Of a stretch of 64,000 nucleotides of DNA, positions 14,823-62,236 are shown piece by piece. The notes under the pieces are model-generated. The model ran no database searches, was not told the DNA's origin, and worked only from the letters and a program-made list of their open reading frames with translations. The position numbers and the translations under genes are program-made. The stretch's first letter is position 1. Each line of letters begins with the position of its first letter. Where the stretch lies: the NCBI RefSeq assembly GCF_000516985.1, contig NW_006917100.1:186001-250000 (forward strand), in the 5' to 3' direction. The DNA comes from Pestalotiopsis fici W106-1 (lineage: Eukaryota; Ascomycota; Sordariomycetes; Amphisphaeriales; Sporocadaceae).

Positions 14823-15609
14823 GACAACGACGCTGCTATGCAGACTTGCAGAAGCCCGCCGCGATATCAGCCAGACTGGACTGATTGTCGGAAAATGTCA
14901 AGCAGGAGGCGGAAGGCTGGAGCTCGCGCTCGCGTGTCAATCCACGTAAGGCACCCATCGCTGCACAGCTGAAAAGTTCCCCCCTGCCACTCTTCAATTG
15001 AGCCTGCTTGCAGCGACGCACTAAGCGTTCTGGGGCGCAGACAGGCTGCAGACAATTGTGACCACTTAGAGGGTGAGGATCAGCGGAAGTCGTAGCTTTT
15101 AAGCGCCGTCTTTGTCCGATCTCGCTATGGTGATCATGTACAGCAATCTGACTTGCATATCCCTTGTATCGGAATATTCACTCCGCCAATGCATGCCGCT
15201 ATATTTCGAATATACCAACATGCTAGTATAGGCGCCGAACCATCGCGATGGACTGATCTAGCGGACCGGCGCCTGAGCGAGGCCCCGGGGCTCCGCTACA
15301 CCGCCCTCCCCTACAACCTACAAGGTAGGTGCGTTGCGACTAGGTCCCATACTAGGCCATAGTGCCGCAAATGCTATAGAGATTGTTATAGTCGAATGTT
15401 CCGCGACACTCCGTAAAAATTGCCGTTGAGTGAATTATTGTGCAAACAACTTTTGCTTTTTGCTATCATGTATCACAATTGTGTTTTCTTTAATTTGGAT
15501 TCTTCCAATACACTAGGTAGCATTGAGGCGTAGGACGTAGAACGTGAGCGATCTATCTGGCTGAGTTACAAGGGTGATAAGGGTATAAGCGAAGAAATGA
15601 CGTTTCGGA
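14823..15609. other. Intergenic
   Basis: Promoter side of the Ras fusion gene and 3' flank of the next minus-strand gene. A single CGGACCG heptamer lies at 15262-15268. No gene was seen. Confidence 0.5.
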
Positions 15610-37087: not shown

Positions 37088-38220
37088 TCAATCATGTTCC
37101 TCGCCATGAGAGTGGCAAACCGGCATTTGGCCAAGGACGACATTCTCATCATGATCTTCCTGCCAGATGGGCAACGCTGACAAATTCAGTTTTCCAGAAA
37201 TGACGGTACCTAACTCGGGATGACGGAGCGTGTTGGACAGGTCTGGAACACTATTGGAAGCCCAGTTTCTTATTTCTTGAAAGTTTCGGCAGACATGCTT
37301 GTTTTGCCAAACTGCCCAAGGCTCGAGCCAGCCGTCAGCCCACCGCTGAGGAACAAGACTCAGGTCAGCATGACATTGAAGAGACAGCCGAATAGAGTCT
37401 ATGCAATGAGCTGCAGAGGAATATGCCAATTAGCTACAACTCTGACACTAGGGCGGACGCCGGGTCCTTCGTTGGGAGGGGCTCAAGACTCACGGATGTG
37501 GAACTCTGGCGGGACTTGTTGATCTTCGACTTCAGTCTCGGAAGGATAAAGATGATTATAGAGGACTGTTTTCTTGCGCAGGTAGTTGAGGCAGTGTAGT
37601 TGATGAAATACGTCCATGCCAAAGAAGTAACCTGATTGGTCATGGAATTGAACCGAAGACTGGCCCATGGCCTCGACCTTTTCTTGGGACACTTTGATCC
37701 AACCCACTGATATGTGTCAGCGCTCAAAGTAAAAGTGCGCGAAGGTCTAGATGTAATTGGATTTCACGAGAAGTTGTTAGATGAACTCACACCCGTCTTT
37801 CATGCTGATCTTGGCCCATTCTGGATCGGCTACAGAACGATCGAATGTCGTGTAGACAGACTTTTCTCCTAAAGGGAGCTGGTATTGGGAGTATTTCTCT
37901 TCAAATGGCGCTTCCCATGGTTCTTTGTATTCTTAGCTGATGAAGCATGATCGAAATGCCCACTCTGGCTGCGAAGACTCACCGTATGGAGTTCCGTGCC
38001 CTGTCAAGTTCCGGGTGCGATAGTGGAAATTCACAAAAGCCCAAGAAATATTGATGAGCAATAAAAGGCAGTGAAATACATAAGTAATTGCTTTTGCCAG
38101 TCTTGAACGACCAAATCTACTCTTGGTCGGCCTTTTGAGCTCAAACTCGTCCTTTTCACTGGCTAAGAGCGTAGCTTCCTCACTGGATAAGGTATCCGAG
38201 TCGCGTTCGAAGTCAGCCAT
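37088..38220 (-). CDS. UstYa-like oxidase 1 (DUF3328)
   Basis: Four exons give about 300 residues, longer than usual because of a C-terminal extension. An acidic cytosolic start (MADFERDSDTLSSEEATLL) precedes one membrane segment (AITYVFHCLLLLINISWAFV). Both UstYa signatures are present. The first is VFHQLHCLNYLRKK (HxxHC). The second is assembled across an intron as HIPHCIDSIRLSLQC. UstYa-family proteins perform oxidative cyclisation or hydroxylation of peptides in ustiloxin- and cyclochlorotine-type pathways. The extension after LSLVPQRWADGWLEPW replaces the usual DG.G..H.C.DW end but keeps tryptophan and cysteine positions. The gene is the leftmost member of the cluster; a paired CGGTCCG operator lies 127-171 bases upstream of its start. 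Confidence 0.88.
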
Positions 38221-38803
38221 GGCGATCTCTATGGTAGAATCACGTTATTAGGATGAAATGAGTTGAATAAATCATTTAAATCACATTAAAACCAAACGCG
38301 AATATCGTTGTACTGACTTGGATGTTAACAGCCCTGAAGGTGTCTGGTCCGGTCCGGGCTGCAGCGCGGCCCAAAATAGCCCGGACCGGACTCCCCTCTA
38401 TCCGACCATCGGCGTCGGAAAACACAGTCAATCACTTTTGGTCACCAATTTTCTTGTGCAACAGATTCCCGACTTTTATTTCCACATTTTCAACGAACTG
38501 CAACACATATGCTTGTTATAAACATATCACTGTAGCGACTGATCAAACCAGAATTACGGAGCTGACAGTGTCGTATCTCTTTAGTCATGACAGAATGATA
38601 GATGAGAACAACCAGAAATTAAAACTTTTGAAAAAGCTGCGGATCAATATCTAGTCAATGCTCAAAGGGCAATGAAAGTAGAGACAGACTACGGTACTTA
38701 AAGCACTCTAGGCATACTAAAGAAAGATCCATATAAATGGCAGTAGCCATATAATGCATTTGCATTTTTGGTTGTGTTTCCGACTCGATATTTTCTTGGT
38801 ACA
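38221..38803. other. Intergenic, promoter of UstYa-like gene 1
   Basis: Holds the inverted repeat described separately and the 3' flank of UstYa-like gene 2. Confidence 0.6.
38347..38391. promoter_or_regulatory. Paired CGGTCCG operator candidate
   Basis: A perfect 14-base inverted repeat: GTCCGGTCCGGGCT at 38347-38360 and its reverse complement at 38378-38391, with a 17-base spacer. Each arm contains CGG-T-CCG, a symmetric layout expected for a Zn2Cys6 dimer. Confidence 0.7.
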
Positions 38804-39469
38804 TCAAATTTCGTCCATGTCAGGTAGTTTCATCAAGTCCAGAAGCACTCGCCAATCTTTACACTGGTGCTCTACGCCCTGCCCATCCGTCTCCACGTAG
38901 CCCTCTGCTAATGGTTCCAAGGTCATGTCGGCAGCACAGAGTATATCCTACAAGATTCAGTGTATACTCAAGAATGTCTGTTGCCTTATTACATCTCTCA
39001 CCTGTCGCAAAAAGTCGAAACAGTGTTCCAGGTGATTTTGGTTCAGTGTAAGATCAACTACCCTTTTCTCGTGGCTCCCTGTTTGAGGCTCCGATGCAAC
39101 TTGCCTTTTCGCCGGTCTCGCATCGTCCATGGCGAGATTGGCAAACTCCTCTCGAATAGCGATTAGGCAGTGCATCTTGTGAAAGACATCAATGCCTCGC
39201 GGGAACCGTCTGCCGGCGTCGTCGCGCCATTCGGCATCCCACCAGTCATGCCAGACCATAGCTCCCCAAAATTGGCCGGCTTCGGCATTGTCAAAGTCGC
39301 GAAGGTGTGGATGATCGACGAAGGTGTAGGTACGGAGCGGCAGGTTCATGGGCCACTGCGAGACGGGGCGTTCCCAACGACTATGAAATACAAAGGCAAG
39401 GATGATGCAGAACGTGGTCAAAAGACCCATCCCCCAGGGGAGTTTGGAGTTTTGCGATGGAGGAGCCAT
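38804..39469 (-). CDS. UstYa-like oxidase 2 (DUF3328)
   Basis: Two exons give about 204 residues. After MAPPSQNSKLPW a single membrane helix (GMGLLTTFCIILAFVFHS) leads to the lumenal domain. The first signature is VFHKMHCLIAIREEF, the second HLEHCFDFLRQ. Across the intron (GTGAGA...TTGTAG) the frame continues DILCAADMTLEPLAEG and ends DGQGVEHQCKDW..., the textbook C terminus of UstYa proteins. All four HxxHC histidines are present, so it is predicted to be active. It is divergent from UstYa-like gene 3 with a 360-base shared promoter holding two CGGTCCG sites. The ATG at 39469 was chosen; an in-frame TTG upstream is not a normal start. Confidence 0.92.
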
Positions 39470-39829
39470 AGTCACCTGTGCGTGCAAAAATTATTTTTCC
39501 GTTTTCGAAAAGCGAAAAAGTCAAGAAAGTTTTTGATGGAAAGGCCATCTGATGCAATAAATCAATCAATAATGTGCCATTTGTAGTATTTCGAAAACGG
39601 GGACTGTATACGCCACTGTAATTACAAGGCATTATCCACTACCGGTCCGGGGCAATGCACCCCACCAAGTCGGTCCGGCTGATGAGAGGCCAATGGGAAT
39701 ACAGACATTTTTCTTTTCATGCGAACATACTTCTTTGTAATTTCTCAAGGTCAATAAGCCTGACATGTCTACATAGTTGAGGTCAATTAACTCCAACTTG
39801 TAGTACTCATATACCAAATTTTCCAAATA
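39470..39829. other. Divergent promoter of UstYa-like genes 2 and 3
   Basis: A 360-base gene-free stretch with the two operator candidates at 39641-39678. Confidence 0.65.
39641..39678. promoter_or_regulatory. Two CGGTCCGG operator candidates
   Basis: CCGGTCCGG at 39642-39650 and CGGTCCGG at 39671-39678, 150-210 bases from both divergent starts. ACCGGTCCGGGGCAAT (39641-39656) recurs exactly at 42338-42353. Confidence 0.7.
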
Positions 39830-40559
39830 ATGTTGAAGTACGTGTATATGGCCTGCGCGCTTGGCGCCTCCATCATCTTCCTGTGGCTGTCTCTGACTGG
39901 CCCACCGCCACCAATTGCTCACCATACCTATTTGCCCGAAGTGGAAGCAAGACCACGCTTTCTACTTGGAAATGTGACATACCGACACTTTGACGACACA
40001 GCCGAGCGTCTTTGGGACGAGCTGGTCCCTTCTAACAATGGTGCCGTCCTCGCCACCAACATAACCAGTGGTTTTCACTTCTGGGCGATTCCCGCAATGT
40101 TCCACCAGCTCCGTTGCCTGCGCGAGATTCGGCAAGAATTCATCGCGCTTAGCAGATCTGGAGCAGAGGCGCGCAGGTTCATGTCTGATCGGGGTCCCGG
40201 ATCCTCGTACGCAAACGTGTCGTACTGCTTTGACTACGTCCGTCAGGTACGATCAGCCATGACTCAAACGCACCTTGGAGATAAATGACATATTTGCTGA
40301 ACTCTAGTGTCTAGAGCATTCTCTGCCATGCAGATACGACGTTGCACCCGGTCGCGCAACTCACTCCAGAACAGAAAATCATTGACGGAAATGCCTTGTG
40401 GCACATGTGCAAGGATGATTCAATCCTGTACCAATGGGCACAAACGTCTGGAATGCCTCACCAGGTATGTTTAGTCAAAAGTGTTCGATACCCATCTTTG
40501 CGCTTGCTTATATGATCATCTAGGACTATCTAATTCGTGAACACCCGATTTCCGGATGA
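39830..40559 (+). CDS. UstYa-like protein 3, degenerate HxxHC motifs
   Basis: Three exons (39830-40246, 40315 to about 40468, about 40527-40559) give about 200 residues. MLKYVYMACALGASIIFLWL is a signal anchor. The fold is clearly UstYa (SYCFDYVRQ spliced to SILCHADTTLHP, then DGNALWHMCKDD), but both histidine motifs are altered: the first reads FHQLRC in place of FHQLHC, and the second reads NVSYC in place of HxxHC. With three of four motif histidines changed, the normal metal or catalytic site is probably lost or rebuilt. It may be a non-catalytic partner, as in paired UstYa/UstYb-type systems, or it may be decaying. The reading frame is intact and the promoter carries the cluster operator, which favours a functional role. 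Confidence 0.85.
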
Positions 40560-41203: not shown

Positions 41204-42124
41204 CTACGCTGTCCCGTGAGGATAACCACCCTGGTCCGAGATGCGATGCTTTCGTGCGAAATCGAATACAGTTTCGAAATCCCTGCAAACATGGTATGCC
41301 CCAAAGCCGTCGGTGGCAGGCTCATCAGTATCACTCTTCTGTCCCTCTAAGGCAGTGTCGGCACAGCACGTCAAGGAATTCTTCAGGTACTCGAAGCAAT
41401 GACTGACGTGCCACATCATCAGGTCGTCTGACATATCCTCATGCCCATGATGTTTATTGTTGCCCAACAGATTGCTAAACTCCTCGGCTAGCATGTGCAA
41501 GCAATGCAGTTGATGAAAGACGGCAATATTGTATAAATTCTTATCGCGCGATCGAATTGGAGGCGGCAACGACTTGTCGCTCCAATCGTCAACGGATATA
41601 AAACCGCCACCAGCTATGTCGAGATCTTTTCAGCATGTTGACCGCAATTTTACGTTCTCGGTATTCGGCTTTTACCTGGCATGACTTTCATCCAACTCGC
41701 ATCGGTGGCATTCAGTGGCTCAAAGCTCGGATCTGCCTTGAATATTTTTACTTTGGATCCAACTATGGACAAAATTCAGCTCTTATACCCGCCCATGTAG
41801 AATAGAGATGTGCTCACCAGAAGGGACAAGCGAGTTGAACTCTTCAAGAGGTCGTGGGTCCTTGGACTGTAGCCAGGTGGAGTGGAGTATCGCAGTCTGC
41901 AGCATGACGACAAGCAAAAGGACGCCGATGAGTGTATTTCGGCAAAGTGTTACAATCTGAGCTTTGCGCCGCCGTCTTCGCTCATGCCTTGATATAGTGC
42001 GGTCGACCTCGTACTCAAAGTCATCGCTGGGAGCTGTCGAGGACGAGCTAGCGATACTTAGTAGTGGCCGTTCAGAAGATTTGCGCATGGCAACTTGTTT
42101 GGAGGTGTACACTCCAAAAGCCAT
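41204..42124 (-). CDS. UstYa-like oxidase 4 (DUF3328)
   Basis: Three exons give about 265 residues. A long basic and serine-rich cytosolic start (SRHERRRRRKAQ) precedes one membrane helix (NTLIGVLLLVVMLQTAIL). Both signatures are complete: AVFHQLHCLHMLAEEF and WHVSHCFEYLKNSLTCCAD. It ends TDGFGAYHVCRDFETV..., the ustiloxin-type C terminus (DG.G..H.CRDF). This gene and UstYa-like gene 6 are the two most alike in the cluster (both AVFHQLHCLH and a CC-D-T-x-LEGQ stretch), so they may be paralogues that act on the same kind of site. It is divergent from the precursor gene and shares its 525-base promoter, the arrangement expected of a core modifying enzyme. Confidence 0.92.
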
Positions 42125-42649
42125 ACTGAAGTCCGCTAATGTGTAAATAGAATAAATGATGGTTAAGATGTAAGGTGAATAATGCAGGATCTAATTTGGG
42201 CTGTTGTAGCTAAATGGTGGGATATCCTGGGCTGGGTGATTGATTCGAATGTTAGAGCGTACTCGAAATGTTAAGGGAGCCGAAAGAATACTCCCGGAAA
42301 GTTTTACACATTCTAGACCCTTAGACGGTCCAATATGACCGGTCCGGGGCAATTCCGGACTTGTAGAGGACAACGCCGGATAGGCGCTTTCCGGACGAAC
42401 GAGGACCACGGTTCAAACCTGGAAAGACAGTGTATTGTCGGTAGAGTGAGGTCAATATTCGTTATACTTCATCAATGGTTATCGATTCACATTACGTCCA
42501 CGTATATAGCCCGGAATGTCTTCGCTCGAGTGTCAACCCTCAGCAGCAGCATCAACGCTTCTTCACTCAGCTCTTCACCGCCTCATCCAATTCATCACAA
42601 CGATTCTATTCTTTTTAGAGAAACCTCGAGCATCAATTATTTGATCAGT
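42125..42649. other. Divergent promoter of UstYa-like gene 4 and precursor
   Basis: Contains the operator candidate at 42338-42353 and a C/T- and A/C-rich leader before 42650. No other gene was seen. Confidence 0.65.
42338..42353. promoter_or_regulatory. CCGGTCCGG operator candidate
   Basis: ACCGGTCCGGGGCAAT, identical over 16 bases to 39641-39656; a half-like CGGTCC lies 12 bases to the left and TTCCGGAC to the right. It is about 215 bases from UstYa-like gene 4 and 300 bases from the precursor ATG. Confidence 0.7.
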
Positions 42650-43078
42650 ATGGTTTCTGCCAAGTCTTTCGCCGTTCTGTCCCTCCTTGGACTCTGCATG
42701 GCAGCTGCTCTGCCCGCTGAGTAAGTACTGCAAAAGATCCCATATAATTTCCGGGTGAACAAATACTCAAGCTGAACGATTTAAACCAGAGTCAGTGACA
42801 AGAGATATCTCGTCAAGTATGAAGGCGACAGTGCCAACGACAAGCGCTACTTGGTCAAGTACGAAGGCGACGAGGAAGCCGCCAAGGACAAGCGTTACCT
42901 TGTCAAGTATGAGGGCGACGAGGAGGCAGCCAAGGATAAGCGTTATCTTGTCAAATATGAGGGTGATGAGGAAGCTGCCAAGGATAAGCGTTACCTTGTC
43001 AAATATGAGGGTGATGAGGAAGCTGCCAAGGACAAGCGCTACCTTGTCAAGTACGAGGGTGATGACGAGACTGCTTAA
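42650..43078 (+). CDS. RiPP precursor peptide, six YLVKYEGD cores (dikaritin-type)
   Basis: Exons 42650-42720 and 42790-43078 (GTAAGT...ACCAG intron) encode 119 residues. Exon 1 is a classical signal peptide (MVSAKSFAVLSLLGLCMAAA, cut near LPAE). Exon 2 starts VSDKR and then holds six repeats that start at 42806, 42848, 42896, 42944, 42992 and 43040. The repeat is YLVKYEGD plus a spacer: SANDKR in repeat 1, EEAAKDKR in repeats 2-5, DDETA at the end. KR before every repeat fits Kex2 cleavage in the Golgi. The core holds two tyrosines (positions 1 and 5) and a lysine. A secreted, Kex2-cut tandem-core precursor next to UstYa-like genes is the definition of dikaritin RiPPs such as ustiloxin, phomopsin and asperipin. 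This core matches none of those I know. The peptide product, its crosslinks and its bioactivity are unknown. Confidence 0.93.
42806..43075 (+). repeat. Six tandem core-peptide repeats (42-48 base period)
   Basis: Units of 42, 48, 48, 48, 48 and 36 bases. Third-position differences (for example AAG/AAA, GGC/GGT) show that the encoded core is kept while silent sites drift. Repeats 4 and 5 differ at only a few bases. Confidence 0.95.
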
Positions 43079-45700: not shown

Positions 45701-48398
45701 GATGCCTCCGTCTTTGAAGTCACCACGTGCTAGGGAGTTTCGGACTGAATCCGTATCACAACAATCACATGGATTGCCGGCACATCTCAGTTTATATACC
45801 TGTCGAACCCCGGTTCTAAATCAGTACATGACGCACAGCCCACCAGGTCTCAACGACCTATTCCGTCTTTGCTGTGACAACCTCCGTGCCATGATGCATA
45901 ACATTGGATCCCCAGCTGTAACGACCTCCTGGCCAGAGCACTGCTTGGAGCCTCTGAACATAGATATCGATAATTGGAGAGGTCAGTTCAGCTGACGGGT
46001 GTTGGGCCAAGTTCCGGGGCCACGATTGGAGAGCCAAGACCTGATCCCAGACATTAGCCCCGCTCATAGACAATCAATCCTCAGCTGCCAGGCCACAAAC
46101 AGTATTTCTCCAATCACCGAGCTAGAATCAGACAGGGCATCTATTCGAGAGTGACAGGAACAGCAGATCATCGGTTGTGTAACATGGATGTCCCTGGTTC
46201 ACGGACCCATGCTTCGGGTCGAATGTGGGAGGTCTCGGTTGGGTATTGAGCTCGTGTTTTCCCGCTTACGGAAGCTTACATGGTAGGTCTCAGCCAGCGC
46301 TGTCGAGTAGGCATAGAAGTGTTCTTGCTACAGAGCGCTGGGGGGGAAGAAATAACAGATGCTACAGTAGCTTTAAGCGTTTATTCCACATTGTTTCGTA
46401 CAGGTGAGAGCGGGGAAACAAAAGGAATTATAGTTGTGACAGATTGCTTCGAGCTCAACGTAATGATTGGCTCCCTTGTACCGGAGTGTAAGGGTGTTGG
46501 TGCGAAGCACAGGGCCAAGCTACTTCAACCTCACTTATTGAGTCTAATTTCCAAGCACACAAATCACTGTACAATGTTGTTGTGTCACCCTAACAATTCT
46601 TTCAGGCGGTTCCGACTCCTCGTACCGACAGTGCACCGCTCAGTCTAGTGTTTGGAAGACCACGGTCCTCGTAAGGCGACTCAGCATGCCAGAGCGGATT
46701 TCAAGTCTACAGATCATACAAACAAACAACATGAGGGCACCAAGCGCTGAGACCCGCACCTGTTGAACGAAAGTGTCGAGTTTGACACGCCCATTAGATC
46801 GTGTGGAACTTCCCCTACCGGTGGCCGTTGCAGCATCATCTTATTTCCGCCCGAGATTGGACGACCTTCATCAGGATCTTGTTGTATGTAGGAGGTGTTC
46901 CGTGGTTTATTAGAACGACGACAAGCAGATTCATCCCTAACAAGATTTGGAAAGAAGATAAAGTTCCGGCGCGTATGCGACTGAGGGGCAATCAGGCTAT
47001 CAAGATCTAGACCAACGAGGCTGACGATTAGCATAATCTACTGTACTCTATTAGTGAAATAGGTGAATTGCTTTTGGCTCCGAAGTGTAGTTTAACCCAA
47101 GGATACTGAATAGCACATTACACTTATTCTCTATCTGCTATGCCTGCACGGGCTCGCCCGGTCTTCCACCTGCCTCGCTGCAGGGGTGCTAGAGCCGCCG
47201 CTAAAACGAGAGGCTTTACTGACTCGACCAGCTTAGTGGACGTACTATGTGTGTATATATTGAAGCATTTCGAGGTTTTCTTCCGGACTCCTGCAATAAA
47301 TCCCTGCATAAATCCCTTGGGCTTCGGCTGAAACGCGCCACGGCGTTTCTTGGCAACGTCCGCACCAATCGATCTCAGGATGTGCGTTATTAACAGTCAT
47401 GATTGGGCTACCGCGAAGATTAGAAGGATAACTAGGGCAGTTGGCAGTGGACTAATCCACTTCCGGCATTGTATTTGGTATAGGGCGAGCCATTCTTTGA
47501 TCCCATAACTTCCAGTTTTGGACATCGCCATGCCGAAAACCATTGTATATGTCCAATTTCCTTTCTGCAATAATATGGCGCACGTGAAAAATTGATCAAG
47601 TTAGCATTCAATAAATCTCACCGTTTAGTATGTATCAAATGGCTCTTTGAAATCTCAACGAAATTTAAACTCACTCGTTGACACATTTTTTATTCATTTC
47701 TAATACCTTTCTTTTTTTTTTCAAACTTCCACTGGGGTTTTAATCGACGATATACGGCAGAGCCTAATTAGCTCGATTAGGCTGATCTTACAACACAATG
47801 TCTCTACAGTCTTTTCCCCCTCCACTTCTCTAATTTTCTCAATTATTCTTACTCTCCACTACACCTCCCTCACTGCTTGGGATGGGTCAATGAGAACCTG
47901 TACCCGTATTTATATGACAACAAAAAGATGTATTTAGTTTTCCAAATGCGTATTTTGTTTTCGAATCACAAATTCGGACGGTATACACAATTGCATTTCA
48001 ACAGTCATATATACTAGGTAGTTTCAATGTCGCATTACAAAACCGCCACAATTTACACTTAATATTTCAAAGTAAGAGAATTTCATTTTTGTCAGCAAAA
48101 GAGGCAAAAGTTTGGTGTGGCTCCGAGAATGACACGAAAACTCTCATCGCCCCGTGACCGGTCCGAGGGCGGTCCGCATTCGTATTTTATTTCCGGTAAA
48201 TCGTATCCACCAACTTCCTTCCCAAGTAGAGATATTGGAGAAGATATCATATTTTGGAAACAATAGTATATACTATAATTGGTAATCTTGTTGTCTTCGT
48301 GTTATACCTATGTGTTAGAATACTCATATGATAACACGAGAAAACCCATATTTTAGCGCCGCAAACATCTCCTAAGTCCCAAACTAGGAACATCGAAC
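45701..48398. other. Gene-poor region of 2.7 kb inside the cluster
   Basis: Only short, motif-free frames, some AT-rich DNA (47640-48110) and no transposase remnant that I can recognise. The promoter of the acyltransferase gene is at the right end. Confidence 0.5.
48157..48176. promoter_or_regulatory. Two CGGTCCG operator candidates
   Basis: ACCGGTCCG at 48157-48165 and CGGTCCG at 48170-48176, about 225-240 bases upstream of the acyltransferase ATG at 48399. Confidence 0.7.
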
Positions 48399-49880
48399 AT
48401 GTCCCACAGACGTTCTGCCTTCTCAATAGCGGCATTGGCCATCAGCGGATCATGGACTGCCCGCGAAATAATCAGCACAGTCGCAACAAGCCTTCTCCCT
48501 AGCTTTATGAGATCATCGAATGAGGAAAAGGAACCTCTCACAACAACCAAGTCTACCAAAAGCAGTCGCCGTCAAGACACGGCGTATCTTGATGGTCTCC
48601 GAGGCTTGGCAGCATCTGCAGTATATGCATATCATTTCATGGTCCCTTTTAGTCGATCACTTTTGTACGGCTCCTTACCCAGTAGTCCGGACTCGGCTTC
48701 CTTTTTTGGACTGCCCATCATTGGGTTCTTCCGCAGCGCCGCGACCATGGTGAACATATTCTTCATCATCTCGGGCTATGTGTTATCACTTTCGACCCTG
48801 CGAGCTATCCACTGGCAAGACTGGGAGAAGGCTCTGCATTGCCTATCGACTGCTGCTTTGAAACGCGGAATCCGTCTATTTGTACCTGCAGTCATCACCA
48901 GTCTGCTCATATTTGTGCTGTTTTCAGGACAGCTCTATGCCAACGAGGACCTTTTCATGACCTTGCCGGCACATTGGGTACCCCTTCGACCAAGGAGAAA
49001 AGCCTCGCTCCTTGCACAATTTCAGGACTGGCTCGATTTCGTGATTCGACGATTGACGAATCCGTGGCGATGGAACTACGACCTATTTGCCAGCCCCAAC
49101 GCTAGCTACTATGGGGCACACCTTTGGACTATCCAGACTGAATTCCACTGCTCGCTCGTATTATTCTTCATCATGATGGCGCTCAGTCGGATAGCCGGAA
49201 GTTGGGCAAAATTTACACTTTCAATTTCCTTGATACTATATAGCTGTCTATGCGACCGGTGGGAAGTGGCCATGTTCCTGTGCGGCATGATATTTGCAGA
49301 ACGCGACATTGGTTCTAAAAAGACGTTGGAACCAAAGTGGAAGGACCTAAATGGTCACTGGATATTCAGGAGGTGGTACCGAGTATTCATTGTGCTTCGT
49401 GGTCTGGTGGTCCTCTGCACTGGCTTGTGGCTAGCTTCGTATCCGGAGCTGCGCGGTGCTGAAGCGATTGGATTCAGCTGGCTCGCGAAGGTTTCTCCAT
49501 CACCACAGGTCTGGCAAGCTATTGGAGCATCTTGTGTGGTCTGGTCAGCAGCAAACGTCACCTGGGTTCGTTCTTTCTTGGCTACTGGCCTGCTGAGGTA
49601 TGTCGGCCGTATATCATTTGCCCTCTATCTTATACATGAACCACTTTTACAGGTCTGTGGGTGGACCTTTGCCTCTGAGATGAGAAAGTACTTCATCTCT
49701 TTTTCTACAGATGTCGGTCTTTCCCCAGGGCTTGGTGCGCAAGTGGGTATGTGGATTGCCTTTGTCCCCATAACGTGCGTGGTCGTCATTGTGTCCGATT
49801 ACGTATGGAGAGCGCTGGACAAACCTTCTGTGGTACTAGCTGGCAGAATGGAGACATATTTACTATTAGAAAACGAATAG
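48399..49880 (+). CDS. AT3-type membrane acyltransferase
   Basis: An intronless gene of 493 residues. The family entry motif YLDGLRGLAASAVYAYHF contains Arg-x10-His, the conserved pair of acyltransferase-3 (PF01757) enzymes. About ten hydrophobic segments follow, including FFRSAATMVNIFFIISGYVLSL (AT3 helix with FFIISGY), HLWTIQTEFHCSLVLFF and YVGRISFALYLIHEPLLQV. AT3 proteins move an acyl group, often acetyl, from CoA to sugars, lipids or natural products at a membrane. Here the promoter operator and the position suggest acylation of the peptide core, for example on lysine, tyrosine or a hydroxyl added by a UstYa enzyme; that target is inference. The ATG at 48399 gives an N-terminal tail of about 55 residues before the first motif. 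Confidence 0.9.
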   Translation: MSHRRSAFSIAALAISGSWTAREIISTVATSLLPSFMRSSNEEKEPLTTTKSTKSSRRQDTAYLDGLRGLAASAVYAYHFMVPFSRSLLYGSLPSSPDSASFFGLPIIGFFRSAATMVNIFFIISGYVLSLSTLRAIHWQDWEKALHCLSTAALKRGIRLFVPAVITSLLIFVLFSGQLYANEDLFMTLPAHWVPLRPRRKASLLAQFQDWLDFVIRRLTNPWRWNYDLFASPNASYYGAHLWTIQTEFHCSLVLFFIMMALSRIAGSWAKFTLSISLILYSCLCDRWEVAMFLCGMIFAERDIGSKKTLEPKWKDLNGHWIFRRWYRVFIVLRGLVVLCTGLWLASYPELRGAEAIGFSWLAKVSPSPQVWQAIGASCVVWSAANVTWVRSFLATGLLRYVGRISFALYLIHEPLLQVCGWTFASEMRKYFISFSTDVGLSPGLGAQVGMWIAFVPITCVVVIVSDYVWRALDKPSVVLAGRMETYLLLENE

Positions 49881-50212: not shown

Positions 50213-50272
50213 CGGTCCGGAAAGTCCAGGAATAGTGGCCATCAGTTTCCGGATATGGCTGACCCGGACCGG
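50213..50272. promoter_or_regulatory. Paired CGGTCCGG / CCGGACCGG operator candidates
   Basis: CGGTCCGG at 50213-50220 and, in the opposite direction, CCGGACCGG at 50264-50272, 148-207 bases upstream of the ATG at 50420. Confidence 0.7.
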
Positions 50273-50419: not shown

Positions 50420-51379
50420 ATGGAAGCAATGATCAGCTCTAGGCCTAGCAACGACAAGTACGAAAAAGTCTTGGCGAACGATCCCGAGCTTGAGAGTAAC
50501 AGCCAGCGCACCGAAGACGAAGATGAATCGATTCTCCCAAAGTGGGACCAAGGATATAGGAAACGTTCGCTTGCAGCAATGGTATGGCTTTGCATGCGCG
50601 TCGCCTTGATCGTGGCCAGCATCATTGCTTGGGGCTCGTCGCTATGGCTGACCCATTTGGCGACCCTGGAGCTCCAAAAAGCCCGAGCACTCATCCCACA
50701 CTCGGCAATTACTACTGCGCAAGCCACCAAAACTCTCACTGTCACAGCCAAACTCTCAGCCCCAACTCACACCGATCAAAAGACCGACAGTCATGAAAGC
50801 ACCGGACACAGAATTACCAATCCTCACCATGACTCGCTAAACACCATGTTCATACCTGGCGGACAACTTCCCGTCGCCGGATACGGTCTCGCATACAACA
50901 CTTATTACTGCAACGGGTGGTCCGACCCCGAAGGCGCCCGGGCTCGAGGGTGCGTGCTGGACCCGAGCCAAGGCGGCTGGGTGCACGAACTCTGCCACGA
51001 CCCAGAACTCCGCGCAGAATGGCTGCGGCTCCCGGACTTTGGCTGGTGGCTCGACGCCCACCGTACCCAGCCTATAGCCCAGGAACGAGTCTGGGCCGCC
51101 GACGTGCCGGGCGGCGTGCACACGGAGCTCTTCACCCCGCAGGCGTTTCACATTGAGCACTGCAAGTTTGTCATGCGCCTCCGTGTCAAGCATACCACGC
51201 GCCGCAATCGGGGTCTTGGGTATCTGCCTCTGGACCCTGGGCACATGTACCACTGTCTGCACATCATGACGGATGATGGTTCGGATCCCACGACGCTCAC
51301 CAAGGTTGTATTGGGAGAGTTTGGTGGAGGAACTTCGGGATTTGGATTGGGTGGTGAATGTTATATGCCGATACTTTGA
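50420..51379 (+). CDS. UstYa-like protein 5, divergent form
   Basis: An intronless gene of 319 residues. A charged start and a membrane helix (MRVALIVASIIAWGSSLWL) precede a Thr/Ser-rich stalk and a lumenal domain. Two HxxHC motifs are present (QAFHIEHCKFVMRL and PGHMYHCLHIM), but the context differs from the other members: there is no FHQLHCL helix, and an upstream tract (YYCNGWSDPEGARARGC, VHELCHDPEL) adds further Cys and His residues. It fits a separate branch of DUF3328-like proteins that keep the two motifs in a different frame. The operator-rich promoter ties it to the cluster. It may perform a second oxidation, such as hydroxylation, but this is inference. Confidence 0.75.
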   Translation: MEAMISSRPSNDKYEKVLANDPELESNSQRTEDEDESILPKWDQGYRKRSLAAMVWLCMRVALIVASIIAWGSSLWLTHLATLELQKARALIPHSAITTAQATKTLTVTAKLSAPTHTDQKTDSHESTGHRITNPHHDSLNTMFIPGGQLPVAGYGLAYNTYYCNGWSDPEGARARGCVLDPSQGGWVHELCHDPELRAEWLRLPDFGWWLDAHRTQPIAQERVWAADVPGGVHTELFTPQAFHIEHCKFVMRLRVKHTTRRNRGLGYLPLDPGHMYHCLHIMTDDGSDPTTLTKVVLGEFGGGTSGFGLGGECYMPIL

Positions 51380-51877: not shown

Positions 51878-53977
51878 CTACTGACATATGGCCCAGATCA
51901 AAGCTGGAACACACAGAACAAAAGTCCACAAGACATCAGGTACCATACCTAGCGCATCGAGCCCTTGATCCAGAAGCCAAACAACGACTAGTGCCATAAT
52001 TTGGGGAACAGTGATCGACATATTGTGGACTGCTAGAAGCCTTGGGGTACTGTGGTCGTCATCACACTCTGTGTCAGGATTTTCGTCCTCATTTCCAGGC
52101 GCCTGGTCATTCGAAGGACCGTCTTTCTCGTGATTGGCAGGATTTTGATTCTGGTTGGGTCGAGGAGAGTTTGCCGTCCTTGCTCGAGCTCGCACTGCGG
52201 CTTCGTACGCAATGAGTGTATACGGCACCCAGTTTGCAAGACTGAATAAAAGTCCATTGGATCCCAAGAACAGTGAAGTCATCAGAGCGGTAGAAGTGCT
52301 TTTTGGGAAAAGATTCGTCACAATGGTGGCCACCAGGGAAATAGCTAGACCAAGCAAGGACGGCCGCCATATCTCCCGCCAAAGTGTTTGGCGGGTTGTT
52401 TCCAGCGTTTTAGTACCATGAGATTCTTTGTACTTTTCAATCTGTATTGGCTGTAAAAGGTTTGTTGTAACATCTTGCCGGTTGTCATGATTTGAGGCGA
52501 CATGGCTGGTTGTTGTGATATGGAGTGAAGCACGTCTTACATCGGCCTCATCTGCTTCCGTCTCGGGATCACTATCATCTTCGATAGTAAAAACGGCGTC
52601 ACCAATTTCGTCATCTTCTCCGTTTGTCTTCGAGGATAATAAGTGATATGAAGAATCTTCCCTGGTAAGAGAAACTAGCACCAAAGATAGCAGAGATGTG
52701 CAATGAAACAGGAGTGCGGTCCAAGCAATAGCCGTGGCTGACTGTTGGGACGCTGCCATCAATGTATTGTGATCTTCGTCTTGACACAAGTTAGTACCAC
52801 CTTTTTTGTAATAAGAGTTTGTCAAATGTTGAACTCACACGCGCGAGATACAAGGCTTTTCAATATTCGCATTTGGTCGAGTTAGCGTCGGATGCTAGAC
52901 AGCAATCAAGAGTAAGGGGCAAACACTATGAAAGGGTGCAGATAGACTTACACACTCGTATAGTGTAAAACCAGAAACCAGGCAAACCATGACCGCAGCT
53001 GCACCGCACACGTCCAACGAGTGATCGGTGGCAAATCACGCGCAGTCTTCAATGTATGCGAGAGTCGAGAACGGATCGACATTGATCTCTGCACAGGTTC
53101 TGATACCCCTAGTATAGGATACCTGTACAACTGTGACACGGCTACCATGATGAGCATCGCTAAAAGCAAGGCCACCACAACCAAACTCAGATCCCAAAAT
53201 GCGGGACTGTAAATCAGTGCGAGGAGAGCAACGAATATGGATCCCATGACGGAAAAGCAGCTGACCCATAGATTAACAGCAACCTGCTCATCCGGGTCAA
53301 AGTAGTCGACTATGGAAGCGCGTAGCCCTAGCGATAGAGGCTGGATGCAGAAATTGAGCATATACAGGCTGACCCCCGCAACGACATGAGTGACTTTCGC
53401 ATCGCTCCACGCCGCAGCGGTAGAGTAGGATAATTGTTCGACAATGATGCTAATTGATGCAAACGCCAGGAGGGAAAAGATGACACCGATTCCGCCAAAG
53501 AATATGAGGGGCTTGCGTTTGCCGTAGGGGCTGCCAAAGCTGTCACCTACAGCAGCGACAAGGGGTGGAACGATCAGTCCTGCCAGAGGCCCGGCAAATA
53601 GGAAAAGCGGAACGTTACTGTCGCTTATACCCAGACTGTACAGATATGGCTTGATTTGAGCAGTCAGCAATATCCAGGCAATGTGGACACATATGGAAAC
53701 AAGGAATCTTGAACTCCATGACAAACGACTCACAATTCCAAAAACTTGTTGGATACTCCACGTCAGCTGAAGGCTGTTGAAGCGAAAGAGTTAGTGTCCA
53801 TGCTCATTGCACTTTTCTTGCGTCGAGGATTTACACGTACCAGAAAAAGGGGAGGGTGGCAATCAGAAAGTCTCGCCGCAACCTAGGTCGCTCCTCTGTT
53901 TGCGGTGTATCAAGGGAACCATTTTCATCATTTGTCGGCATAAAGGGTATTTCTTCGTAGATAGGTTCATTTTCCAT
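51878..53977 (-). CDS. SUT/GPH-type carrier (SLC45-like), cluster transporter
   Basis: Exons join to about 600 residues with around 12 membrane segments. After a soluble start (MENEPIYEEIPFMPTNDENG) the frame runs CLQLTWSIQQVFGI, spliced to PYLYSLGISDSNVPLF, then AGPLAGLIVPPLVAAVGDSF and GSPYGKRKPLIF. LTWSIQQ..., PYL.SLG and AGPL.GLIV are the landmarks of plant-type sucrose carriers and fungal relatives, with the D-F-G-S-x-x-G-K-R-K loop of the superfamily. The last exon has a long acidic and polar loop between helices. Its gene is divergent from UstYa-like gene 6 across a shared operator-containing promoter, so it is probably the peptide exporter or an organelle carrier. A sucrose-type carrier in that role is unusual for RiPP clusters. 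Some small exons near 52790-52850 are less certain. Confidence 0.85.
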
Positions 53978-54405
53978 AGTGGCAGAACCAAAATTCTGAT
54001 ACGAACTTGTAGTTGCTCAAGATTGAATGTGAAAAGACAGATGCTAAGCGTGAAATGTTTTGCTCGTTTTTTTTGATTCACTGACAATTTTTCGCCATCA
54101 TATTCAGCTGCACAAGAATTGGGAAACGGACTCTGGGGGGTGGAGTGAAACCAGTGCTGATTGGTTGGTAATGGTGTTTGTGCTATCCCCATTTTTGGTC
54201 ATTATTTTCCGGAGATGGTCGTTTGCCGGACCGCAGCTCGGTCCGGGGACTCCACAGTCGATGGCCGCTCTGATACCAGAGCCACTTGACAACGACCTGA
54301 GTATAGCCAAGTGATTGAAGACGTTCAGCTGCCTCTTTTTCTCTCTGGATATCATTCCTTGAGGCAAAGTTTCATGCATTGTGCTACCGTCGAGAGTTCA
54401 TCAAA
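53978..54405. other. Divergent promoter of transporter and UstYa-like gene 6
   Basis: 428 bases with the operator candidates at 54226-54246. No gene was seen. Confidence 0.65.
54226..54246. promoter_or_regulatory. Paired CCGGACCG / CGGTCCGG operator candidates
   Basis: CCGGACCG at 54226-54233 and CGGTCCGG at 54239-54246 in opposite orientation, about 160-180 bases from gene 6 and 250-270 from the transporter. Confidence 0.7.
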
Positions 54406-55220
54406 ATGTTCAGCAAACATATCAGAAACGTTCTTCGGCGAATGGATACGCTCACCGAAGAATATTTCATACTCACCTCATGGAAGTATCTTCGTCGGAT
54501 CCTCCTTATTTGCATAGTATTTGCGCAGTGGTACCTTCTTTGGAAATTATGGACAGACCCGCCCTTGCCTGAGATATTGGGCGACGTGAATGGATTTGCA
54601 CCGTCTTGTAAGCGACTCTTGTGGCCACCGTGGTTTGACTAGCTCTCTGACTTTCTAATGAGTCTAGTTGGCTCTAAACCTACTCTTTTCCAGAAAGAGC
54701 CGGACTTTAATCCGTTGAACGCAAGCGATTCGCGGTGGTCAGATTTGCTTCCAGAGTGTAAGTGATGTGGAGCAAAATAGATTGATCTGCTATTCTGACA
54801 TTTGCAGTGGGTGGTGGATTTGTACGAGTTCCATCGTGGCAATCCTTCCCACTACTACCAGCGCCAGTCCGCGCACCGAGCGACGGAACCGAGAGCTACA
54901 ACGTGGCCGTCTTCCACCAGCTTCATTGCCTGCACAGCATTGCTGAGCTCGTGGAAGAGCTTCTCCCAACAACGGCGACAACGACGGAACCAAAGGCGCG
55001 GATTCCCTCGCCCCGACGCAAGCACATTGAGCACTGTTTTGAATACCTCCGGCTATCGCTGCGCTGCTGTGGGGATACTACGCTAGAGGGCCAGGGCAAG
55101 ACTGTGACACCACCAGGGATCGATGGATTTGGGAGCGTTCACATATGTAGAGATATTTCCCGGATTTCATCGTGGGCAGAGGAAAATCGCGCTTCTGACT
55201 TGCAGGAGTTGCCAACTTGA
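54406..55220 (+). CDS. UstYa-like oxidase 6 (DUF3328)
   Basis: Three exons with introns of about 54608-54667 and 54759-54808 give about 238 residues. A basic start and one membrane helix (ILLICIVFAQWYLLWKLW) lead to a lumenal domain with GGGFVRVPSWQSFP. The signatures NVAVFHQLHCLHSIAELVEE and HIEHCFEYLRLSLRCCGDTT are complete, and the end PGIDGFGSVHICRDISRI matches the DG.G..H.CRD pattern of the family. It looks catalytically competent and is most like UstYa-like gene 4. The ATG at 54406 was chosen because the upstream frame opens only with a TTG. Confidence 0.92.
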
Positions 55221-55709: not shown

Positions 55710-58495
55710 TCAAACCCTATCGACCATGGAAACTAGGTCCGCAACATGCTCAAAGAACTTGTGATGTGGCAAAGTCTCAGCCAGCCTCCCGAACAGTCCA
55801 TAGGCCATGGCAATCAGTACTCGACCGTCGCGCTTTTTCGCGTCCAATTCTGAATTCCCATCCGCTTTCTCAATAGCGAGAAGACACAGGGCCATTGTTG
55901 GGACGTGAAGTAGTGTTCTGTCATATACTGGTCAGCAATGAAGTTCTTGCTGGTTTGCGAGACCCAAGTTCAACTTTAAAGAACCATGCCAATTTGGACT
56001 GCATACCTATCATATGTGATCTGCGATAAATGAGTCCCCATCTCAAGCACGCTCCTGACAGTTTGCATCAACATTTCTGTTGCTGTCTGATCTTTCTGGT
56101 TTGACTGGTCATGATAGCGGGCTCGTGACTTGTTCATGACAAGTGGGCTAAGCACTGATAGCAAAGCCTCATAATACTGGTAAGCCGCGGAAATCTTTAG
56201 AAGCATTTGGCACTCTTGTATGCTGGCTTCGCCCTCAGCATCTGCTCGGCTATGTGTGATGAATTGAACTGATTTAAACCAATCCTGCAGATCTGCCAGG
56301 AGATTATTGATGGTTGCATTCTGCATCTCGTCGGACAGGGGTTGTGATTCTTCTCGCACCATGTCCCTTCTGACCTTCTCCTTCGATGCTGAGTTACTGC
56401 ATGTGGCAGATAAGAAGGAGCCCTTGGTAATGCGAACACAAATTTGGGCATAGGAGCACTGGTAACATAGCCAATCTTCTTCGTATCCGTTTGTGCCAGT
56501 GTCGGATTGGGATGACCGGCTAGTATGTCGTCTCTTTTCAGATCGCGGCAGGTCGTAGTCCAATTCGGGCAACAGCTGAACTGGTCAAAAGTTGTCCAAA
56601 AAGAGATCATGGCGGGCGTACCGGAAATGTTTGCCAACGAAGCGCGTAGCGCTTATCAATGACGAAGAGGAACCATGTTGCCCGTTTCACTTGGATTGTA
56701 CTGATTCCAGACTCCTTTCCCTGCAGAATGAAATCAAGATGAAGCCTGAGAGACTGTGCAAGTGAAACAGCCTCGGCTAGGATAGATGAACATTTCTCGA
56801 GGCCAAATCTGAATGCAAAGACGGACTAGATTGACTCTTAATACGATGGTCACGCTCCATGGGCGAGCAATGAAGAATCAAAATCACAATAACGTACCAT
56901 TGCGACGATACTCTGTTTAATTCGAATATTAGAAATACTTGCCCTACAGTTTGAGCAGGGTTATACCTACCAAATACTTTGATATGGAGTCAGGCTCCGT
57001 TACCAGGAGTTGGTATTGCTCCAACAATCGTACTTGCAGGTCACATATGAAGCTTAGACTCATATTCGTTTCGATCATAGCTCATCAAGCGAGGGCGAGT
57101 GTCAACAGGAAGTCTTCCGAATCTGTTGGAATTGCCATCTTCTGTGCTTCTTCGAGGCAATCTTCTTTGATGAGTTTTGTGACGTTTCCTTTTTCAAGAA
57201 AGCATGATATTCTGATAAGCTCGTGAATCGTTAGTGTCCGTTACTAACCCAAGAATAAAACCCATGGACACACTTACCCTGTTGGATCCTCGAAACATGC
57301 TGACGTCCAAATGAGCTCGTGTCATGACAGGCATGGTCCGGGTCAGTCATTATACTCACAGTTCACCAAATTTTGCACCTGGCTTACCGACAATGTGCAA
57401 TTCACATTCATGTCCCCGGGAGAGTTGTCTCCAACATGATCAGCCCAAGCTGTAGGAAGTCCCAGCATGGACTGTTTTGAAAGAATCGTAGCTGTAAGCT
57501 GACGAATGCGATCCTTTGTCGTCATTTGTTCAATCGATTCACCAGCCGAGACTTCGGTGAGGTCGTAGGAGGATTTATTTCTTTTGATCACGGATGAATT
57601 AGCAAATGAGTGAAGATTGGGAAATAACAGGCTTCTGCGACGTTTTCCGTTGCCTGATTGTTCTGTTGCAATCAATTGCTTCGTTCCAAGGCAGGGCCGA
57701 GACTCCTTGAGAGGGCCAAGTGAGTTCGAAGCCGTGCCATCAAGGTTGTGGGTACTACTGCTAGTCTCCAGAACCCATTCAGTGCCATTTGCTAAGTCAG
57801 ATGCCTCTTGTAACAGTGATAGTGCATGAGAATCATCTTGAGTTGAGGTAGAAGAGCTTTCAGATACTAATTGTGTATTCCGATTTGGGAAATGCCTAAC
57901 CTGCTGCAGTCCAAGGCACTTCAGAGGCCAGAAATTCCGGTACCGCCGGGGAAAATATAGCAGACTGTATAGACCGCCGGTTTTCCGAGCTTGAATCAAG
58001 CTCGTGAACCAGAATATCGGTCTCATCATGCAAAATAGTGCTGTGCGATTCATGCAGCCAGGATTCGTGACTCTGGTCCGTTAAGCCATAGGACCAATCC
58101 ATAGTGTCATACCATGGGATGGCAATTGCCTCGCTGGGCGAGCCAAGAGTCAATGCCGAGCCGGCATTTTCTTCATGTTGCTGATGAGCACTTGTTCTGT
58201 TGCTCTGTAGCTTGGCTTTTGTTGGTTGATAGGTACAGGTGTTGTCATGTCGCTAGTGTATGTAGCAGATAAGCTTTCATCCTCTCATGTGTTTGTCATC
58301 CAGCAAGCTGATGGCGAAGACATACTTTACAAAAAGAGCATGGCTCTTCCCCATTGCCTAAACACTTAGTATGGGCAGTAACCAACCTGCGATTGGTGCC
58401 TACTCACATCTAGCCTTCTTTTCACGGCACAGTTGACAGGCACCACGACGCCTCTTTATCCTTGGAGACTTGGGATCGCTCTCTTTGGAACTCAT
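55710..58495 (-). CDS. Zn2Cys6 transcription factor, likely cluster regulator
   Basis: The DNA-binding domain is built from three exons: RIKRRRGACQLCREKKARC, then NGEEPCSFCK, then RHDNTCTY. This yields C-x2-C-x6-C-x5-C-x2-C-x6-C, an exact binuclear zinc cluster. The following exons carry ESSSTSTQDDSHALS, KRRRSLLFPNLHSF and a helical C terminus ending RRDG-like and HHKFFEHVADLVSMVD, all on the same strand as the start. Several internal exon borders (for example near 57900 and 57360) could not be fixed by eye, so the span is secure but the exact protein is not. Zn2Cys6 factors bind paired CGG triplets, and CGG-T-CCG pairs lie before nine cluster genes, which makes this gene the best candidate regulator. 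No CGGTCCG lies in its own proximal promoter. Confidence 0.85.
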
Positions 58496-60504: not shown

Positions 60505-62236
60505 TTACTCCGTAAATGGTTCATTGGATTCAAGACTATCCACGCGCCCCAGGAGAACCTCTAGATGACGATAGGCCGCGCTTGGCGCATATTGCGGTAC
60601 CATGTGCCCTGCCATGTTGATAGTCACGAACGTAAGCCCTCGCTCCGTATGTGTTGTGCCCATGACCCCAGCGCCAGTCAGAGTAGCCAGCTGTGACTGG
60701 TCATTGGTGGCGGTGATGGCCGCGTACGTGGAGAGAGCGTGCTGAGGGACGAGGAAGGGCTCGCTGGGTGCAGACTGGAACCCCTGCAAGCCGCCCCAGG
60801 TCATGTTTTGGATAGCAAGCAGTGTCTGGTTACTGATCAGCACAAAGTCGAGTTGTCCGTGGCCAATGATGACGTTTTGGGTCGCGTCAATGACACGAGG
60901 AATGGCCGCCCAGCTGCTGGGGTCAGAAGCGTCAATGTTGTCTTGAAAGATCCCACCACTACACTCGGACCAAGATTGGTTTTCGTGTACATGTATTGCT
61001 TTCTTGACATCTGCCCTGTCGAAATAAACTTCTGCGCCTTTGGGGAGATATGACAATGAGCCAGGCGCTCCGAGCACGTCCCAAAGCAGAGGGCAAGTTG
61101 TGGCCACCTGATACTCATCAAAGCACGGGTTTATAGGAAACATCTCTGTGTAGATAGATGTCCACAATCCTTGGCACTCATCAGTCAGATTCATAGTCCC
61201 TAAATCTGGCTGTGGGCCTGGTGGTGGGAAAGTCAGGTATGTTGTTAGGCGGTGCTGAAAGCCGCAAGACTCATGAAGTCTGTGCATATTGCCTGCAAAG
61301 GAATCGTTTAGAGGAAACAGACTCTTGTGCTGGTCAACAAATGGAACAGCCGCTATATTGCGATCACTGATGGCGTTTCCGATGAGCGGGTCATAAATGA
61401 GCATGCCGGACACATTGAAATATGTGGCATCCTGAGCGTCCAAAAATGCCGACCCAATGTATGGACAATACATGCCGGCATACGATTCGCCCGTAATGTA
61501 TACCTTGAAGCCATGCAGCCCGAAAAGGTCAACAAAGTTCTTCCAGAAGCCCATGAACTGGTGGCTCAGTTCGTTTTCATCATGGATGGATGGCGTTCCT
61601 GTAGAGAATCCAGTGCCAATGGGCTGCTCAATGTAAACAATATTGGTTAGGCGACTCCAGCTCCAGGGATTGGGAACTGGTTTATAGGTGCCATACTGCC
61701 AAAGGAACGGGCCATTTTCCTGCAGTAGACCTTCCAAGGAGGAGCAGCCTGGCTAAATCATCGTGAGCCAGATCCTTCAAAACGAATTCAAAGTCCAACT
61801 TACACCGCCATTAAGCCAGATTACAATTTCATCCCGGGAAGTAGCGGATGAAGAGGGAAAGAACCAGAAAAACAGCCTTTCGAGAATAGAGAGGTCCTCG
61901 CTGATGGACAAGAGTCCAGCGTAGGATTCCCCGATATCGAAATCGACATCTGGAAGAGAGGTGCTGTTTACAAAGAATTCTATAAATAAGTCAATTGGAA
62001 TGCACTATTGAAATGTAGAAGAATGCTTTCTTACGTGTTGTATTTGCTTGAAGATAGCTTGAGTTAGATGGTTGTTTAGAATTCCGTTGAAGTAGTTGAT
62101 AGTCATTGCCTGTATCTAATCTCTGTAATAGCTGGTCATGGTGTGAGAGAAGTCGGCTGTCCGTCAAGGCGAAACATGAAAGCAAGATTAGGATATGCAA
62201 GACAAATGTCCACGGCCACGAAAAGGATGAGTACAT
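60505..62236 (-). CDS. Secreted serine carboxypeptidase (S10)
   Basis: Three exons give about 540 residues. A signal peptide ([16 protein letters not shown]) follows the ATG at 62236. The catalytic landmarks of family S10 are complete. WLNGG is spliced to [21 protein letters not shown] (the oxyanion-hole region). The nucleophile is in [16 protein letters not shown], the catalytic Asp in [11 protein letters not shown], and the catalytic His in [19 protein letters not shown]. It therefore should remove C-terminal residues from peptides in the secretory pathway or outside the cell. It lies 2 kb right of the RiPP regulator and lacks the cluster operator. A role in trimming core peptides after Kex2 cleavage (removing trailing KR or spacer residues) is conceivable, but it is speculation. 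Confidence 0.93.

Follow-up and report, generated by a model that had tools for sequence, protein, structure and literature searches.

A probable dikaritin-type gene cluster of Pestalotiopsis fici with a six-core repeat precursor and a UstYa-family lineage lacking the copper histidines

In the ustiloxins and phomopsins, the N-terminal tyrosine of the core peptide is joined to an internal isoleucine (PMC9233826), and an EDYXI or Y-x-I motif has been published for both groups (PMC6339444). The formation of the ustiloxin ring requires UstYa as well as UstYb, and the third system considered here, asperipin-2a, is a bicyclic peptide derived from the core FYYTGY (PMC6514808). The chemistry of such UstYa (DUF3328) proteins is exemplified by CctR, a DUF3328 enzyme in which two copper ions are held by the histidines of an HxxHC(x)nHxxHC motif, and in which the change of conserved motif His and Cys residues to Ala abolished the activity (PMC12435403). 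The precursors belong to the KEPs (Kex2-processed repeat proteins), of which 1758 out of 7878 in fungi were found to adjoin DUF3328 genes (PMC7329392). A review from 2022 counts only five reported dikaritins, yet 22% of the KEP genes have UstYa neighbours (PMC10512285).

The locus described here lies in Pestalotiopsis fici W106-1, within a window of 64,000 nucleotides (C10:186001-250000, the whole stretch of DNA that was analysed) of a genome of 51.7 Mb in 20 contigs. The precursor gene is read from the plus strand and consists, in the gene model, of two exons encoding 119 aa. Exon 1 (42650..42720) begins with the ATG at 42650 and encodes a hydrophobic N-terminus, MVSAKSFAVLSLLGLCMAAALPA(E), judged by eye to be a signal peptide; it is followed by a predicted intron of 69 nt (42721..42789, GTAAGT...CAG) and by exon 2 (42790..43078), which carries six DKR-YLVKYEGD units and ends with a TAA stop. 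The cores start at 42806, 42848, 42896, 42944, 42992 and 43040; all six are identical and each is directly preceded by DKR, which bears out the first-pass annotation of a signal peptide followed by six near-identical repeats, each after KR. Tandem Repeats Finder describes the array as a 48-bp repeat at 42832-43065 in 4.9 copies, and it is single-copy in the 51.7-Mb genome, where the sole further match has an E-value of 2.3. The protein combines both features of a KEP, a signal peptide (by eye only) and repeats split by KR sites, and it has the N-terminal leader and repeated cores that characterise a dikaritin precursor. The computed [M+H]+ is 986.483 for linear YLVKYEGD, 984.467 with one crosslink and 982.452 with two, and that of the tailed form YLVKYEGDEEAAKD is 1629.764, before the loss of 2 or 4 H.

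The six core copies differ at eight sites, all eight of them synonymous (pS 0.72, pN 0), a result with a probability of 1.4e-5 under a naive neutral model of independent sites. The variable sites of the four internal EEAAKDKR spacers are likewise all synonymous (4 of 4, naive probability 0.0014), and the core is therefore not alone in varying only at silent sites; amino acid differences are confined to the first (SANDKR) and last (DDETA) spacers. The earlier observation of silent variation around an invariant core therefore stands, and its reading as selection on the released core specifically is weakened. Judged from the sequence, the pattern is better explained if the 16-residue unit as a whole is constrained, or if the copies are young, than by a constraint limited to the core.

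Relatives of the precursor were sought among 5.8 billion proteins, with 6344 candidates scored; the proteins covered were about 52-166 aa long, and any longer precursor would be missed. The sole match at E up to 10 is P0001, a protein of 89 aa with a modest E-value of 5.8e-3, which carries YLIRYEGD twice, each time after DKR. The same chain also contains a second, unrelated repeat type, with AAWATKRDEP-like units in between. The search with P0001 as the query returned no match beyond P0001 itself. YLVKYEGD and five variants of it have no relevant match in the paper texts searched, and to that extent its description as new-looking holds, although the core may be listed in the supplementary tables of the KEP surveys; one paper that came up in this search deals with grass-pollen allergens and was discarded as not relevant. 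The further claim of a core different from those of ustiloxin and phomopsin is not supported, as the present core starts with Y-L-V and that of P0001 with Y-L-I, which fits the Y-x-I rule (PMC6339444), for the present core only if Val may replace Ile. Where the published EDYXI motif has ED in front of the tyrosine, the present core is preceded by KR. Repeat precursors are frequently encountered next to UstYa genes, so that the present one, taken by itself, is an ordinary new example of a familiar class.

The window contains five genes with a Pfam UstYa (DUF3328) match and one cryptic UstYa-like gene, and four UstYa genes are located on one side of the precursor, within 6 kb. These are Ya1 (37200..38220, minus strand; HQLHC and, across a predicted intron, HIPHC; exon matches at 37256-37414 and 37516-37704; 3′ end approximate), Ya2 (38807..39469, minus strand; HKMHC and HLEHC; PF11807, E 3.6e-9; 3′ end approximate), Ya3 (39830..40559, plus strand; PF11807, E 2.7e-6) and Ya4 (41204..42124, minus strand, divergent from the precursor; HQLHC and HVSHC; PF11807, E 1.7e-25). 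Ya5 (54406..55220, plus strand; HQLHC and HIEHC; PF11807, E 3.3e-20; exon limits approximate) lies on the other side. Ya1, Ya2, Ya4 and Ya5 are canonical, with both HxxHC motifs; Ya3 is the one of the five that fails in this respect. The cryptic gene (50420..51379, plus strand; HIEHC and HMYHC) encodes a UstYa-like membrane protein with no Pfam UstYa match of its own. Further genes encode a membrane acyltransferase (48399..49880, plus strand; PF01757, E 6.4e-20), a probable GPH-type transporter (51878..53790, minus strand, limits approximate) and a probable fungal transcription factor (55713..58252, minus strand, limits approximate). The transporter gene has at least two open frames, and its match (TIGR01301, E 4.6e-11) comes from the first frame only and is weak, with 42 bits against a cut-off of 511; that of the transcription factor (PF04082, E 4.8e-5) comes from one frame, 56610-56825, and equals the cut-off (23.0 bits, cut-off 23).

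The five-gene definition of the dikaritins includes a tyrosinase, a methyltransferase, and a transporter or peptidase. The nearest tyrosinase (PF00264) match on the contig is at C10:531349, and neither a methyltransferase nor a reductase was found among the frames scanned in the window (20 of its 43 ORFs of at least 150 aa, together with shorter ones). The place of the transporter or peptidase could be taken by the weak GPH-type match or by a serine carboxypeptidase of family S10, which is situated beyond the stretch that carries the promoter word described below. The S10 gene (60508-62004, at about 60.5-62.2 kb) adjoins the cluster and has no promoter word; for this position it was set aside as a candidate for trimming the peptide tail. 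Beyond it, at about 63.3 kb, starts an ABC-transporter-like gene that seems to run past the window. Just downstream of the precursor, a short frame at 44045-44278 matches sugar transporters (PF00083, E 1.8e-8) and is perhaps a relic, and elsewhere in the window a single open frame (13008-14897) joins a Ras-like GTPase to ankyrin repeats. The genes from Ya1 onwards probably form a dikaritin-type cluster of about 22 kb with the KEP precursor inside.

The word CGGTCCGG occurs ten times at 37.2-59.7 kb, compared with a single occurrence in the remaining 41.5 kb of the window and another in 190 kb taken from other loci of the genome. The limits of this region were drawn after the sites had been seen, the right end being set to take in the last site at 59650, and this makes the Fisher value of 1.7e-9 too favourable. 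With a first-order Markov model of the region as the control, the mean was 0.35 occurrences and the maximum 2 in 300 runs. Of the 8-mers that the region contains five times or more, CGGTCCGG is the most over-represented, 34-fold against a 231.5-kb control (with pseudocount). Each of the six UstYa-type genes has the word in its upstream region, as does the precursor; the sites lie 130-310 bp before the start codon in Ya1-Ya5 and the precursor, and about 156-207 bp before the UstYa-like gene. There is a convergent pair upstream of Ya1 (38350..38388, plus strand), and two sites each precede the UstYa-like gene (50213..50271) and Ya5 (54226..54246), both without assigned strand. Upstream of the acyltransferase stand two CGGTCCG sites, matching the 7-mer only (48159..48176, plus strand; 229 and 240 bp upstream). 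An extended 15-mer, CCGGTCCGGGGCAAT, is located on the plus strand between Ya4 and the precursor (42339..42353) and between Ya2 and Ya3 (39642..39656, with a second CGGTCCGG at 39671), and these two promoters hold its only exact occurrences in 51.7 Mb. With up to one mismatch, 5 matches were counted in the genome and as many for the reversed control, and with up to three mismatches there are four matches in the window, a number reached in 3 of 100 shuffles. The pair pattern around the Ya1 sites was found at one place only, and the reversed control gave two per strand. The cluster genes are apparently co-regulated, presumably through a factor that would bind this word.

The flanking UstYa genes and the promoter word in common support the proposal, made in the first-pass annotation, that the gene encodes a dikaritin-type RiPP precursor; the probability of this reading is put at about 0.8. 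The product would probably be a ring-shaped peptide, cut in six copies from a secreted protein. Kex2 cleavage after DKR would leave each peptide with Tyr1 at its start, and the canonical UstYa copper enzymes Ya1, Ya2, Ya4 and Ya5 would join the phenol of Tyr1 to the beta-carbon of Val3 (Ile3 in the relative P0001). A second link may be formed by Tyr5, as in the bicyclic asperipin-2a, the acidic tail would be trimmed off, and the acyltransferase may acylate the product. A tertiary beta-carbon is common to Val and Ile, so the same ether could form on either; a Tyr1-Val3 ring as in ustiloxin and phomopsin has, by this analogy, even odds.

Two other products have to be considered. The ring could be of the asperipin-2a kind, a bicyclic structure with both tyrosines linked and no Tyr1-Val3 ether, which would suit a core with two tyrosines and a locus with no tyrosinase near it, as the asperipin-2a cluster of four genes likewise has none in its published description (PMC6514808). 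The pathway of asperipin-2a, however, uses one UstYa-type protein compared to six here, and position 3 is beta-branched in the present core and in P0001, as in the Y-x-I cores, which makes this kind of ring rather unlikely. The gene could also be a KEP that releases linear, pheromone-like signalling peptides, the UstYa genes being chance neighbours. The same architecture is indeed known from linear pheromones, and 6120 of the 7878 KEPs of the survey have no DUF3328 neighbour (PMC7329392); the four UstYa genes within 6 kb and the promoter word that they share with the precursor argue against chance, and nearly all KEPs annotated as mating factors in the same survey come from genes without a DUF3328 neighbour. 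We consider this reading very improbable, and the dikaritin-type precursor remains the preferred one.

The unexpected part of the locus is Ya3, not the precursor. Its motif 1 reads HQLRC and its motif 2 NVSYC. In an alignment of Ya3 with 20 homologues (E up to 1e-3), the second histidine of motif 1 is lost in 21 of 21 sequences, being replaced by R in 15, Q in 4 and K in 2. P0019 is not alignable at motif 2, and in the other 20 sequences the first histidine of this motif is lost without exception and the second in 19, P0020 keeping it. None of the 21 sequences has a full motif 1 or, among the 20 alignable, a full motif 2, and the HxxHC(x)nHxxHC arrangement is absent from all of them. All 21 aligned sequences share His83, His92 and Cys96, Cys133 is almost invariant, and the identity within the lineage is 58-92%, except for two distant members. 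The nearest named homologues come from Neopestalotiopsis sp. 37M (92%) and Pestalotiopsis sp. NC0098 (89%), the latter a member of the Sporocadaceae, Amphisphaeriales. The other named sources are Trichoderma, Cladobotryum, Cadophora, Rhexocercosporidium and Stipitochalara, genera which, together with Pestalotiopsis and Neopestalotiopsis, we take to span the Sordariomycetes and Leotiomycetes.

As a control, 10 of the 10 canonical UstYa frames of alignment A4 retain all four histidines, partly by selection, as A4 took only frames with both motifs visible in one exon. In a fairer control, a motif 1 of the canonical xHxxHC type is present in 17 of 17 other UstYa frames from the loci retrieved, and Ya3 alone lacks it; five further rows of this relaxed scan, judged by eye to be chance matches in non-UstYa frames, were left out. 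The Ya3 lineage is separated from the canonical frames in the FastTree tree with a support of 0.966. The AlphaFold model of the homologue P0004 is poor (mean pLDDT 55), and only its helices 88-109 and 126-144, which hold the degenerate motifs, lie in blocks at about 74-81 pLDDT. The comparison of a UstYa exon with solved structures gave no match at E up to 1, and the titles and abstracts of the literature searched contain no description of a lineage of UstYa proteins lacking the copper ligands.

Only one relative of the precursor was found, yet Ya3 homologues of 86-92% identity occur in Neopestalotiopsis, Pestalotiopsis and metagenomes. The precursors of these fungi may have escaped annotation, fall outside the length range of the search, or be of another kind. 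The ENA contigs that encode P0001 and P0017, the latter a Ya3 homologue with 66% identity, are both 9902 bp long; by this equal length they are probably one and the same, so that precursor and Ya3 would adjoin in a second fungus.

Going by its residues, Ya3 alone is unable to build the known binuclear copper site, and it looks like a conserved inactive or re-liganded subunit. The ustiloxin ring requires two UstYa proteins, and by analogy Ya3 may be a non-catalytic partner of a canonical UstYa, to which we give somewhat less than an even chance. Ya2 is a plausible partner, since the two genes have one divergent promoter. The main alternative sees in Ya3 a working enzyme whose metal site has been altered, with other conserved residues, for example His83, standing in for the lost histidines. 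The invariant residues of the lineage and its preserved identity would agree with this, but CctR lost all activity once its motif His and Cys became Ala (PMC12435403), and no reliable model places His83 near other conserved residues; we regard such an enzyme as unlikely. The loss of the copper ligands could also mark a decaying pseudogene without function, which is hardly credible in view of a reading frame intact over three predicted exons (200 aa) and of the same loss in 20 homologues of high identity from several genera. The non-catalytic partner is kept as the working interpretation. Its extension, that Ya3 founds a lineage of inactive or re-liganded but necessary partners and marks a tyrosinase-free Y-x-[V/I] sub-class of dikaritins in the Sordariomycetes and Leotiomycetes, is offered tentatively and is more doubtful than probable.

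In its layout the product of the cryptic gene at 50420-51379 matches UstYa, with two HxxHC motifs and, judged by eye, one membrane segment. Aligned together with five distant relatives from the genome (L041-L045) against UstYa, it gave an hhalign probability of 92.7% (E 4.3e-7), and one of the relatives reaches 23.8 bits on the UstYa model, just below the cut-off of 25. Two of the five, at C6:762664 and C3:5375729, lie within 2 kb of UstYa matches; the closest paralogue of the gene, in two pieces at 4647 kb of C2, does not. The family may represent an unrecognised branch of these copper enzymes (DUF3328). Pfam mostly does not call its members UstYa, and motif 1 of L041 has no Cys. At C2 4647460-4647920, the N-terminal half of the gene is found in two frames of 68 and 58% identity, perhaps a broken copy.

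Other KEPs of the genome were looked for at 9 of the 23 UstYa loci counted in it, and a KEP is present at three of the nine, the present locus included. One antisense match in L012 and the matches in L008 and L009, which overlap the window, were left out. The second KEP (L012:6364-6864, C2 at about 4922.4-4922.9 kb) has three NNEVDADEYDLRSAWAKR repeats, and the nearer of two UstYa genes is about 6 kb off. The third (L019:7818-8270, C1 at about 6660.8-6661.3 kb) is a mixed GNPIQDGDEYHHYNNKR / SPVEDPEVVSNEYLNYDKR precursor, which alternates two repeat types, EYHHYNNKR with paired histidines and EYLNYDKR, and adjoins a group of several UstYa genes. A search with an alpha-pheromone pattern gave seven matches, compared with three for the reversed control, and none of them was clearly a pheromone.

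The cluster provides a delimited set of genes, together with predicted masses and a candidate regulatory word. Through the Ya3 lineage it becomes testable why pathways of the ustiloxin and phomopsin type carry more than one UstYa, and the conservation of a member that has no copper site suggests that certain UstYa proteins may be structural or substrate-guiding partners and not enzymes. For this lineage and the delimited gene set, the locus is of more interest than the precursor alone.

The ustiloxin cluster, with UstA, UstYa and UstYb, resembles the present one in the signal peptide, the repeated core starting with Tyr, the KR sites, the presence of more than one UstYa gene and the transcription factor, a probable one here. 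It differs in the core, which is YAIG in ustiloxin B (PMC6514808) and YLVKYEGD here, and the cluster of P. fici has no tyrosinase near but contains an acyltransferase and an apparently inactive UstYa. With the phomopsin cluster it shares several DUF3328 genes, five in phomopsin (PMC7329392), and, if Val may replace Ile, a core of the Tyr-x-Ile type, while core and repeat are different, the tyrosinase is not near and a methyltransferase was not found in the part scanned. The asperipin-2a cluster (aprA, aprY, aprT and aprR) is alike in that it has no tyrosinase, that its core contains more than a single Tyr and that it includes a transporter, a probable one here, and unlike in its one UstYa-type gene compared to six here; a reductase was not among the frames scanned at the present locus. 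Both HxxHC motifs of CctR and the DUF3328 copper enzymes, absent from Ya3 and its 20 homologues, are present in Ya1, Ya2, Ya4 and Ya5, and the precursor has the architecture of the KEPs described in the surveys PMC7329392 and PMC6339444.
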